Of a DNA stretch of 64,000 bases, positions 4,385-24,332 are shown piece after piece. The position numbers and the translations under genes are program-made. How positions within the stretch are numbered: the first letter of the stretch is position 1; every line of letters starts with the position of its first letter. Under the pieces are notes generated by a model. It did not search any database. It was not told the origin of the DNA and worked only from the letters and a program-made list of their open reading frames with translations. The DNA comes from Natrinema salifodinae. GTDB taxonomy: Archaea > Halobacteriota > Halobacteria > Halobacteriales > Natrialbaceae. The stretch covers positions 699,491 through 763,490 of the forward strand of contig NZ_FOIS01000003.1 in the NCBI RefSeq assembly GCF_900110455.1. Direction: 5' to 3'.

Positions 4385-5536
4385 ATGCAATACAGCGAAC
4401 TGGGCGACTCGGGAGTCGAGGTCAGCGAGGTCGGCTTCGGCGCCTGGACAGTCGGAACCGACTGGTGGGGGGACCGCTCCGAGGAGGACGCGATCGAGAT
4501 GCTCCAGTACGCCGTCGACCAGGGTATCACCTACTTCGACACGGGCGACGTCTACGGCCACGGCCGCAGCGAGGAACTGGTCGGCCAGGCGCTGTCCGAA
4601 GTCCGCGACGAGGTCACGATCGCGACCAAGGTCGGCTACGACTTCTACAACAACCCGCAGGCCGGCCACGGCGAACTCCCCAAGGAGATGGAGCCGGCGT
4701 ACCTCCGCGAGGCCGTCGAGGAGAGCCTCGATCGGCTCGGCGTGGACTCCGTCGACGTCCTTCAGCTTCACAACGCCGACGTCGAAGAGATCACGCCGGA
4801 CGTCCTCGAACTGCTGGACGAACTCGAGGAGGAGGGGAAGATCGACGCCCGCGGCGTCGCGCTCGGGCCGTCCATCGGCTGGCTCGCCGAGGGCGACTTC
4901 GCGATCGAGGAGGAGTTCGACTCCGTCCAGCTCGTCTGGAATATGCTCGAACAGGAGGTCGGCAACCACTTCCTCGAGACGATCGAAGAGACGGGCTCCG
5001 CGACGAGCCTGATCCCCCGCGTCCCCCACTCCTCGGGGATCCTCAACGAGCAGGTCACGCCCGACACCGAACTCGGCGAGGGCGATCACCGCGGCTTCCG
5101 CCCCGACGAGTGGTACGAGACCGGCTGGGAGAAACTCGAAAAGCTGCGCTTCCTCGAGCGCGCGGAGCCACGGTCCGCGGACGGTTCGAGCGGGCTGCGA
5201 GGCGATGAGACCGCCTCGAACGAGACGGCAACGCCGTCTCGCGGCCCGCGAGAGCGCGACGGCGAGCGCACGATGGGCCAGGCGTCGATCGCCTGGTTGC
5301 TTTCTCACGAGCCGGTCGCGACCGTCACCCCAACCTTCCGGACGAAAGACGACATCGACGAGTGGGCGGCCGCCAGCGACGTGCCGAAGCTCTCCGCGGA
5401 GGAGCTGGCCCGCGTCGAGGAACTCTACGAGGACGACTTCGGCATCGACCGCGACGACGGGATGGACTCGCTGCGTACGTCCGTCGACGGCGAGGACATC
5501 GAGGCGGCGGGCCTGGACAAGCTCGCAGCCGACTGA
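4385..5536 (+). CDS. Aldo/keto reductase with a 36-residue insertion
   Basis: The 383-residue protein is an NADPH-type aldo/keto reductase barrel. The catalytic set is visible as D52, Y57, K82 and H129 (FDTGDVYGHG, ATKVGY, LQLHNAD). The C-terminal cofactor region (QASIAWLL, VTPTFRTKDDIDEW) is also present. The enzyme should reduce an aldehyde or ketone, and the substrate is unknown. Residues 260-295 come from a 108-bp insertion that keeps the frame. Removing it joins FLER directly to TMGQ, the usual family sequence. The insertion sits on the surface just before the cofactor-binding segment, so the enzyme may still work. Confidence 0.92.
   Translation: MQYSELGDSGVEVSEVGFGAWTVGTDWWGDRSEEDAIEMLQYAVDQGITYFDTGDVYGHGRSEELVGQALSEVRDEVTIATKVGYDFYNNPQAGHGELPKEMEPAYLREAVEESLDRLGVDSVDVLQLHNADVEEITPDVLELLDELEEEGKIDARGVALGPSIGWLAEGDFAIEEEFDSVQLVWNMLEQEVGNHFLETIEETGSATSLIPRVPHSSGILNEQVTPDTELGEGDHRGFRPDEWYETGWEKLEKLRFLERAEPRSADGSSGLRGDETASNETATPSRGPRERDGERTMGQASIAWLLSHEPVATVTPTFRTKDDIDEWAAASDVPKLSAEELARVEELYEDDFGIDRDDGMDSLRTSVDGEDIEAAGLDKLAAD
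5162..5269. mobile_element. 108-bp palindromic in-frame insertion element
   Basis: The same 7-base sequence CGAGCGC ends at 5161 and at 5269, so the segment between is flanked by a direct repeat like a target-site duplication. The element is packed with dyads: CGCGGA/TCCGCG at 5161-5179, a 9-bp stem at 5221-5241 (arm CGAGACGGC, loop AAC) and an 8-bp stem at 5237-5253 (arm TCTCGCGG). Its length is exactly 36 codons and contains no stop, so the host gene stays open. The picture resembles palindromic elements that insert inside Rickettsia genes. No other copy was seen in the window. Confidence 0.7.
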
Positions 5537-18404: not shown

Positions 18405-20281
18405 GGCGCTTCGGCTTCGACCTCGTCTTCCGCCGTGGCAGCGTCCGATTCGCTCGGCTCCTGGGCCTGCTCGATCAGCTCTTCGAGGGTCGAATCGGTC
18501 AGTTGGTCGTGGAGCAGGACGTCGATCGGCAGCGTCGGCGCGCCGTCGACCAGATTCTCCAGCAGGACCAGGCGTTCGCGGGCCCGGGACATGCCGACGT
18601 AGAAGACGCGGCGCTCGTTGTCGGTGAGGACGGGGACCGGCGAGGTGGTCTTGGTGAACTCCTCGCAGCCGGGCACGTCGGTCGGGTCGTCGACGGTGGC
18701 GACCATCTGTTCGACGACCTTCTCGGTGAGGTCGGTACCGACGAAGACGTGGTCGGCCTCGCGACCCTTCGCGGAGTGGATCGTGCCGAGGCGGACGCGG
18801 TCGGTGTCCATCCCCTGATACTCGCCGATCGCGAAGTACGACCGGATACTCTTCTTCTGGAAGTTCGTGACCTTACGGACCATGTCGGCCGCCGAGGCGG
18901 GACCGGGCATGAACGGTGCGTGGTCCTCGATGACCTCGGCGGGGATCATGAGTTGTTCGAGGTCGTCGATGCCGGCCTCCTCCTGACGGTCGTCGATCTC
19001 GTCGAAAAGGTCGTCGCGCTCGTTGGTGCCGAACGCCGATTCCTGAAGCATGTCGGCGAGTCGGCGGGCCTGCAGCCCGGTGACGTCATCGCCGCGGTCG
19101 ATAGCTTCGACCGCGCGGACGTACTGAGTCAGCCGATCGGTCCACATCCGCTGGTCGGTCAGCGAGGTGAAGGGGACCCCCTCGGTGATGAACTCGTCGA
19201 TGAACTGGAACATCTGGTAGCGCGCCCGGAACAGCACCATGATGGTGCCGTCGCCCCCGACGAGCGTGCGCCGAACCATCCGGACCAGGTCCAGCATCGA
19301 CGCGTTCGTGCGCGCCTCGACGGCACCGCCTTCCTTGCGCGGCTTGAGGTCCTTGTCCTGGCGCTTCTCGATGTGGCGGATCTCCTGGTTGACCGCGTTG
19401 AGGACGTTCGACGGCAGGCGATAGGAGTTCGGCAGAATGACGTCATCGTCGACCTCTTCCTCGAGCAGGAGGGCGGGATCGGCGCCCTGCCAGGAGTAGA
19501 CGACCTGGTCGTCGTCGCCGGCGATCAGGACCTGCTCCATGTGGGGTTTCCACTCGTCGTAGACGTCGTACTGGAGCGTGGTAATGTCCTGAAACTCGTC
19601 GATCACCAGGTAGTCGACGCTAGGAAGCAGGGAGCGCTGTTTGACCCGTTCGAGCATATCGGCGAAGCCGATCTTGCCCTCCTCGCCCTTGTAGGAGCGC
19701 CAGGCGCGGATCGCTTCGGGGACGTCGATCCGGTCGTCGTCGCTGGGCCAGGTCGGCGTGTACTTGTTACCTTCCTGGGCGTTGGGGTCGATCTCGGGGG
19801 GCAGGCGGACTTCCTCCTCGTCCCACTGGAAGGGGACGTCGTACCAGTCGGAGACGTCGCGGCTGGTCCGCTGGAGCCACTGGCTCGTCGCGATGACCTT
19901 GTTTCCGATCGTCGTCGACCGGGCGGTACGACGGCCGGCGCCGCTGTACTCGTCCTCGTACTCGAGGCCGTACTCCTCGCAGAACTCCTCCTTGTCGGAC
20001 TCGCCGATGACATCGCTGCGGGAGAGGTCGAGCAGTTCGTAGGCCTTGGCGTGCATAGTACAGACGTTCCCCTGCAGCGCCCGTGGGCTCTCGCCGAGCC
20101 GCTCGGCGAGTCGTTCGCGAACCTCCTGAGCTGCAGCGCGCGTGTACGAGACGACGAGAATATCTCGGAACGTAACGCCGTCCTGTTCGAGGATCTCTTC
20201 GACGTGGTCGAGAAGCGCGGTCGTTTTCCCGCTTCCCGGACCGCCGAACAGGCGGGTAACCGTCGTATCCGTTGTAGCCAT
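18401..20281 (-). CDS. UvrD/Rep-type DNA helicase (superfamily 1)
   Basis: The 626-residue protein has the SF1 motifs in order: Walker A GGPGSGKTTALL, Ia YTRAAAQE, II VIDEFQDITTLQYDVYDEW, III AGDDDQVVYSWQGAD, V TIHSAKGREADHVFV and VI YVGMSRARERLVL. This class unwinds DNA 3' to 5' using ATP in repair or replication restart. I chose the ATG at 20281, before ATTDTTV, over a start at 20302 because it sits about 27 bases after a TATA-like ACTTATGGG. The C-terminus is acidic (EAEAP). The next gene overlaps it by 4 bases. Confidence 0.93.
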   Translation of the reverse strand: MATTDTTVTRLFGGPGSGKTTALLDHVEEILEQDGVTFRDILVVSYTRAAAQEVRERLAERLGESPRALQGNVCTMHAKAYELLDLSRSDVIGESDKEEFCEEYGLEYEDEYSGAGRRTARSTTIGNKVIATSQWLQRTSRDVSDWYDVPFQWDEEEVRLPPEIDPNAQEGNKYTPTWPSDDDRIDVPEAIRAWRSYKGEEGKIGFADMLERVKQRSLLPSVDYLVIDEFQDITTLQYDVYDEWKPHMEQVLIAGDDDQVVYSWQGADPALLLEEEVDDDVILPNSYRLPSNVLNAVNQEIRHIEKRQDKDLKPRKEGGAVEARTNASMLDLVRMVRRTLVGGDGTIMVLFRARYQMFQFIDEFITEGVPFTSLTDQRMWTDRLTQYVRAVEAIDRGDDVTGLQARRLADMLQESAFGTNERDDLFDEIDDRQEEAGIDDLEQLMIPAEVIEDHAPFMPGPASAADMVRKVTNFQKKSIRSYFAIGEYQGMDTDRVRLGTIHSAKGREADHVFVGTDLTEKVVEQMVATVDDPTDVPGCEEFTKTTSPVPVLTDNERRVFYVGMSRARERLVLLENLVDGAPTLPIDVLLHDQLTDSTLEELIEQAQEPSESDAATAEDEVEAEAP

Positions 20282-23855: not shown

Positions 23856-24332
23856 TCACCGACCGGCGGCGGAGTTGTCCTGATGGCGAACGCGAACCAT
23901 CCCCTCGGAGGTGACCCCGACGATCAGCGGCGTCGACACCTGGCGGCCGGTGACGGCCGGCCCCGCGGCGTCGCTGACGACCTTCATCAGGTCCGGCGCG
24001 GTGTGGTCGACCTTGACCCCGGCCTCGTCGCAGGCCTCGTAGACCAGTTGGGGCACGTCGTAGAGGTCGGTCCCCTCGGGAACGCGGACCCGGACCGGCG
24101 CGCGGAGCGCCTCCGCGAAGGCAACCGTCTCGCGGGCCTTCTCGACGTTCTCGCGGGCGCTGGACTCGATCGAGGAGACGTTCGCCCGCGAGGTGCCCAG
24201 CTCGTCGGCGATGTCGGCCTGGGAGACGCCGCGTTCGCGCAGCGCGAGCACCTGCGCCTGGCGGTGGGTCAAGACGCTGGTCTCGGGGTCGAAGCCGATC
24301 TCCGCGAGGAGGTCGTCGGTGTCGTCGATCAC
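23856..24332 (-). CDS. Tfx-family DNA-binding regulator
   Basis: The 158-residue protein has an N-terminal helix-turn-helix (LTHRQAQVLALRERGVSQADIADELGTSRANVSSIE) close to the Tfx protein of Methanothermobacter, then VRVPEGTDLYDVPQLVYEACDEAGVKV, the conserved Tfx C-terminal half. Tfx binds downstream of a promoter to control molybdenum-enzyme genes in methanogens. The target here is unknown. I chose GTG at 24332 because VIDDTDDLLAEIGFD matches the typical start of the family, and the upstream sequence has no matching extension. Confidence 0.85.
   Translation of the reverse strand: MIDDTDDLLAEIGFDPETSVLTHRQAQVLALRERGVSQADIADELGTSRANVSSIESSARENVEKARETVAFAEALRAPVRVRVPEGTDLYDVPQLVYEACDEAGVKVDHTAPDLMKVVSDAAGPAVTGRQVSTPLIVGVTSEGMVRVRHQDNSAAGR

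Follow-up and report, generated by a model that had tools for sequence, protein, structure and literature searches.

Palindromic sequences that reside inside coding sequence have so far been a curiosity of Rickettsia and Wolbachia, plus one report from a methanogen. The methanogen repeats reportedly concern a single species and are mostly extragenic, with only a few coding copies. The Rickettsia palindromic elements (RPE) are 105–146 bp long, and at first report less than half of them lay in open reading frames (Ogata et al., 2000, 2002; PMC2229807, PMC10969869). The archaeal case is that of palindromic repeats with coding potential in Methanocaldococcus jannaschii (Suyama et al., 2005, as cited in PMC2229807 and PMC2996958). 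GTAG/CGTC-tagged REPs are mainly extragenic, GTAG-tagged and RAYT-linked (PMC3733652). No description of a coding palindrome in haloarchaea was found in the literature searched, whose scope left out most subscription journals. Here we analyse an insert within an aldo/keto reductase gene of Natrinema salifodinae, located in a stretch of 64,000 nucleotides (the window), and the family to which it leads, which is multi-copy and pan-haloarchaeal, holds one orientation and phase, and has clean empty sites and paired changes in its stems.

The insert in the reductase gene

The host gene and all parts of the insert lie on the plus strand of the window. The host gene (4385–5536) was identified as an aldo/keto reductase from its ORF and from aldo/keto reductase relatives in the PDB, and relatives were present in 59 of the 61 genomes of the relatives search. 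The predicted protein has 383 amino acids including the insert and about 351 without it. A sequence-only reading had placed here an in-frame insert of 108 bp without a stop, bordered by CGAGCGC repeats at 5155–5161 and 5263–5269. Gene, frame and lack of a stop hold, the frame being open through 5155–5269, but the length does not: compared with haloarchaeal orthologues, the net insertion is 96 bp, or 32 codons (5163–5258, with equivalent placements from 5156–5251 onwards). Both CGAGCGC copies are present, 108 bp apart, but they are not the borders, as the right copy falls in conserved host sequence (GERT). The flanking direct repeat is instead GAGCGCG, at 5156–5162 and, 96 bp further 3', at 5252–5258, and in-silico excision at this 7-bp repeat gives exactly FLERDGERTMGQ, as found in most haloarchaeal orthologues. 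Among 80 haloarchaeal reductase loci compared, the empty site reads FLERDGERTMGQ or a near variant and the FLERTMGQ junction is absent from every relative, which corrects the suggestion that excision would fuse FLER to TMGQ as in the usual reductase.

The palindromic element itself was matched at 5159–5257 by covariance model R2 (G000:C3:704649-704747, E 6.9e-6) and at 5160–5255 by model R1 (E 1.8e-8), a match above chance by a model that was trained on other copies, namely five type A reductase copies (defined below) and one copy from another gene. The region also folds better than shuffled sequence, both as DNA (z −2.4; 4 of 200 shuffles equally good) and as RNA (z −3.0; 1 of 200). Hairpin 1 (CGCGGAGC/GGTCCGCG; 5161–5179), whose column pairs covary family-wide, carries one mismatch in the window copy. 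Hairpin 2 (5190–5249) appears in both the fold and the R1 match; its outer stem pairs GCGGGC (5190–5195) with GCCCGC (5244–5249), and its loop is predicted to fold into two extra hairpins, CGAGGCG/CGCCTCG (5198–5218) and CGAGACGGC-AAC-GCCGTCTCG (5221–5241). The latter is the perfect 9-bp stem with a 3-base loop (5221–5229/5233–5241) that had been singled out; several dyads are indeed present. The window copy is an enlarged form of a 54-bp double-hairpin unit, with a hairpin 2 loop of 48 bases vs the usual 3, and the second pair of hairpins may have been gained later, within that loop. An enlarged copy much like it also occurs in Natrialba swarupiae (L037). Two further R1 matches in the window, a weak one on the minus strand in a helicase-like coding motif (20087–20141) and one at 24100, were judged to be chance.

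In the AlphaFold model of the window protein, residues 262–291 have a pLDDT of about 30, a low stretch flanked by one helix that ends at 258 and another that begins at 297, and the insert is accordingly predicted to form a disordered loop between two helices; among PDB sequences, no structure contains the insert peptide. We hold it very highly probable that the window insert belongs to a family of small double-hairpin palindromes that reside in coding genes of haloarchaea.

Distribution, hosts and reading frame

The family consensus is 54 bp long and consists of two tandem hairpins, AGCGCGGAGC-nnn-GCTCCGCGGACnAnTCGAGCGGGC-nnn-GCCCGCGAGAnnAC. Of 41 near genomes, 37 contained R1 matches, with E-values down to 1e-13. 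The class-wide census with R2 (E ≤ 0.001) found a match in 230 of the 292 haloarchaeal genomes sampled, covering 65 of 77 genera, and thus answers in the affirmative whether a haloarchaeal family of such elements exists; copy counts per genome are lower bounds in this census, because scoring was limited to 19 candidates in each genome. When 295 genomes of the phylum were sampled, 42 were positive, all from the window's own order, and none of the approximately 240 genomes that belong to other classes had an R2 match. Of the 16 R2 matches at E ≤ 0.05 in the window's own genome, 15 have the canonical frame with matching codon composition. The census may be biased by a model trained on coding copies. 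IMG/VR, scanned with a strict pattern, gave no match, and a phage collection gave a single weak match, in a mycobacteriophage, which was judged to be chance.

The copies inspected in their surroundings (n = 115) comprise the strongest R1 matches and a further 60 weaker ones. Ninety-eight of them (~85%) are intragenic, in sense orientation and in frame in a single phase, 87 by automatic codon composition of the flanks (the phase being best on both sides) and 11 by inspection. Two are in another frame, and 15 lie outside recognised genes, mostly in two separate groups of intergenic look-alikes. The proposed covariance-model search for copies with other flanks thus found them, in frame, at 63 distinct host sites. 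As read from the flanking peptides, the hosts include TrpA, TrpB (two sites), TrpD, TrpE, CrtI, PurK, PurD, DNA ligase, TopoVI-B, IleS/ValS, argininosuccinate lyase, ribonucleotide reductase, thiolase, PAN and a HerA-like ATPase. Among plasmid CDSs annotated at NCBI, ppc, merA, cobN and an Xaa-Pro peptidase gene carry the element in the same phase, the first base of the consensus being codon position 1, which is a confirmation independent of flank reading; one plasmid copy (L339) lies outside any recognised gene.

The used frame encodes [SR]AExxSADDSSGQxPRE and, alone of the six, combines no stops with 20% Asp+Glu and 2% hydrophobic residues, whereas the other five have 0.5–12% acidic and 8–31% hydrophobic residues. 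An acidic peptide so poor in hydrophobic residues fits survival within acidic halophilic proteins. The element adds a flexible hydrophilic loop to each host protein.

Several further observations concern hosts and relatives of the element. Genes of tryptophan biosynthesis are recurrent hosts (trpA, trpB at two sites, trpD and trpE; L163, 1509–1565 and 2462–2510; L152, L153, L144, L119), and in one genome trpB and trpA each contain a copy. One ORF contains two copies in tandem (L272, ~716–783; SAERGSADNSS followed by SAERSSADSRAAKPRDD). Plasmid-borne merA (mercuric reductase) with the element was seen in Salinirubellus, Salinigranum, Halorussus and Natrinema (L335, L338, L231), and may show transfer together with the host gene. 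Both intergenic groups (L147, L251, L266, L270, L281, L282 and L288; L268, L284, L285 and L286) are double hairpins resembling the element, in which the frame reads CAALRAANSRTAEGRETG and RAARSAAERRAANGRES; they are possibly a non-coding sister family.

Gain, loss and upkeep of copies

At one codon of the reductase, inserts of up to ~120 bp occur in scattered species and most others have none. Type A inserts (AEPRSA..SS..RER) are found in the window, Natrinema salsiterrestre, Halovivax, Halostagnicola and Natronococcus, type B (SASEASGRQGATGGSDRER) in Haloferax elongans and larsenii, Natronorubrum and Halomarina, and type C (ADEGTSSNSRTQSGNDRER) in Haloarchaeobius and others. In a reductase tree computed with the insert columns removed, presence and absence of the insert switch at least 15 times, and on well-supported branches only, the label 'none' is forced to change at least 8 times. 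Near-identical reductases form filled/empty pairs (L009/L117, L093/L118, L040/L047). The CrtI site is empty (KD|GD) in 24 genomes of the same genus, filled by 54 bp (SAERSSADDASGQRPRAH) in the window's genome and in G022, and occupied at the same place by other hairpin sequences in two more distant genomes. TrpB site 1 is filled at 9 loci and empty at most of the remaining loci compared; within Natrinema hispanicum, a contig of CDM_6 (L169) is filled and DSM 18328 (L174) is empty, at ~98% identity in the upstream protein. The other TrpB site lies close to the C terminus and carries an insert in 9. The inserts in CrtI, TrpB and the reductase are all multiples of three and in frame. The suggested comparison with relatives thus finds clean empty sites for all three genes, the reductase insert being missing in most near relatives.

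A further family of coding palindromes (GGCGTCTCCGCGAGCGAMGCGAGCGGAGGCTCGTC..., read GVSASEASGGSSDESDG) occurs in frame in other genes, one of them aconitase-like (L316, L317, L319, L325, L327, L329; around 1501), and shares its core with the type B reductase inserts.

These sites bear on whether the copies might be ancient insertions, immobile since, whose present pattern reflects vertical descent, repeated precise loss and later gene exchange. Similarity is higher between copies that share a site in separate genomes (0.85) than between copies from different genes of a single genome (0.71), and as the latter value does not exceed that found between genomes (0.715), no recent burst is apparent; genome-specific clusters are likewise absent, and the GAGCGCG repeat of the window would permit precise deletion by slippage. 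However, the subfamily found at the reductase codon differs from lineage to lineage, with presence changing as often as given above, and the TrpB and CrtI copies examined mostly have no in-frame flanking repeats that would ease precise loss. We regard this history as possible, though on the unlikely side. Those TrpB site 1 and CrtI copies also show no consistent in-frame flanking duplication, so that the flanking-repeat pattern read from the window does not generalise beyond it, and target duplication was dropped as a general rule.

Intergenic copies are far rarer than predicted from random insertion plus selection, so simple filtering may not be the whole account; to explain the rarity, copies would have to decay faster outside genes or be targeted. 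We think it distinctly unlikely that insertion of a mobile palindrome is directed to translated sequence in one reading frame, or that the palindrome is copied from such sequence. Were it so, the frame-locked residence in genes would reflect the insertion mechanism rather than selection alone, and the family would be a class-wide source of in-frame loop insertions for halophilic enzymes.

The stems are closely kept. Among 52 gap-free copies, 96% of stem cells pair, and both partners have changed in 10 of the 17 pairs (69 cells vs 15.7 in shuffles), a covariation signal that is abolished by sliding the stem partners. Such paired changes, together with the strong predicted RNA fold, are what a functional pair of mRNA hairpins under RNA selection, for instance for translation pausing or RNA stability, would leave. 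Yet among mismatches in the core stems, G-T (G-U in RNA) is not favoured over A-C (6 vs 4), which, small as the numbers are, argues for maintenance of the stems as DNA rather than as sense RNA. Near-identical orthologues do without the element and Rfam has no family above gathering score for it, so RNA selection appears improbable.

An element of the REP/REPIN kind, mobilised by a Y1 transposase of IS200/IS605 type (RAYT), would share the paired hairpins and the lack of a consistent target duplication, and the TAGC start of some copies recalls GTAG-tagged REPs (PMC3733652). The tag is not constant, however, left ends being gtaG, gataG, gagaG and gagcG; REPs are mainly extragenic and the haloarchaeal copies are not (15 of 115 outside recognised genes); and no Y1_Tnp domain is found in G008, with 39 matches, or in G004, G022, G021, G001 and G006, with 17–39 each. 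The link to a Y1 transposase was rejected on account of these match-rich genomes, and we give this origin slightly less credence still than RNA selection.

Less credible still is an ordinary hypervariable surface loop, a low-complexity stretch rich in Ser, Asp, Glu and Arg in GC-rich haloarchaeal proteins that is palindromic by accident and involves no element. The insert does lie in a loop modelled as disordered, and in some reductase orthologues loop length shifts in small steps, with short forms of 9–11 residues. This reading is nevertheless refuted by the copies in many genes and their covariation: a 54-bp sequence and structure recurs at 63 host sites at E-values reaching 1e-13, empty sites are clean at 54 bp, and paired changes in the stems greatly exceed those of shuffles. 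As hairpins within coding sequence, the copies also recall the byps of mitochondria, but the inserts compared in CrtI, TrpB and the reductase are in-frame multiples of three and the frame encodes a halophile-suited peptide. A bypass element skipped by the ribosome would have no need of one fixed frame, and is just as hard to credit.

A possible mechanism and known systems

The best explanation overall, to which we assign a probability of about 85%, is a haloarchaeal family of double-hairpin palindromes that live in coding genes. By the mechanism that we consider the likeliest, copies would enter as DNA via a host or trans-acting activity, and would persist solely where they are translated in frame into an acidic, serine-rich, nearly hydrophobic-free peptide, and solely in surface loops tolerating ~18 extra residues. 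The hairpin arms might stay complementary through hairpin-templated DNA correction in replication or repair, filled and empty alleles could pass between lineages through recombination and plasmids, and some copies would be lost by precise removal. How copies spread and how their stems are kept up is, in this specific form, tentative, and we would put it somewhat short of even odds. The window insert had been taken for a mobile element able to enter coding sequence; a multi-copy in-frame family bears this out, and we infer that the element may be mobile at present.

The frame-locked family sits in conserved enzymes of culturable, genetically tractable haloarchaea, where the non-lethal entry of palindromes into genes becomes testable. 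Through it, haloarchaeal enzymes receive loop insertions that are specific to particular species, and the many natural filled/empty pairs make the cost of an insertion measurable.

The analogy to RPE drawn from the sequence alone is borne out for the in-gene, in-frame habit and fails for unit length and structure. Like the haloarchaeal family, RPE and the Wolbachia coding palindromes are short, palindromic and multi-copy, lie in frame in housekeeping genes, encode a conserved peptide and form several families per lineage. The family shares with RPE in-frame residence in genes of varied function (98 of 115 copies, 63 sites), but its 54-bp unit forms two tandem hairpins rather than a 105–146 bp stem-loop with terminal inverted repeats, ~85% of sampled copies lie in genes, nearly all in one frame, and its range is a whole archaeal class. 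We therefore file it as RPE-like and not as RPE, a separation drawn from published descriptions. The M. jannaschii repeats are likewise archaeal palindromes fused in frame into protein genes; judged by their description, the haloarchaeal family differs in that nearly all copies are coding and that it spans 65 of the 77 genera sampled. REPs are also small hairpin repeats found at times inside genes, whereas our family is not mainly extragenic and has neither a constant GTAG tag nor a RAYT link. MITEs of haloarchaea and other prokaryotes (PMC10969869) are similarly short, non-autonomous repeats, from which the family may differ in target duplication: the window has the GAGCGCG repeat, but TrpB site 1 and CrtI show no consistent in-frame repeat. 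The coding palindromes of Nematomorpha mitochondria (PMC6649704), compared by description, likewise retain inverted repeats inside coding sequence and gain or lose them from one species to another, but are mitochondrial and much longer perfect repeats. By analogy, the Rickettsia and Wolbachia palindromes and the M. jannaschii repeats may work in the same way as the haloarchaeal family (PMC2229807, PMC2996958, PMC10969869, PMC6649704), which differs from them in unit length and structure, in host range and in its near-exclusive residence in coding sequence.
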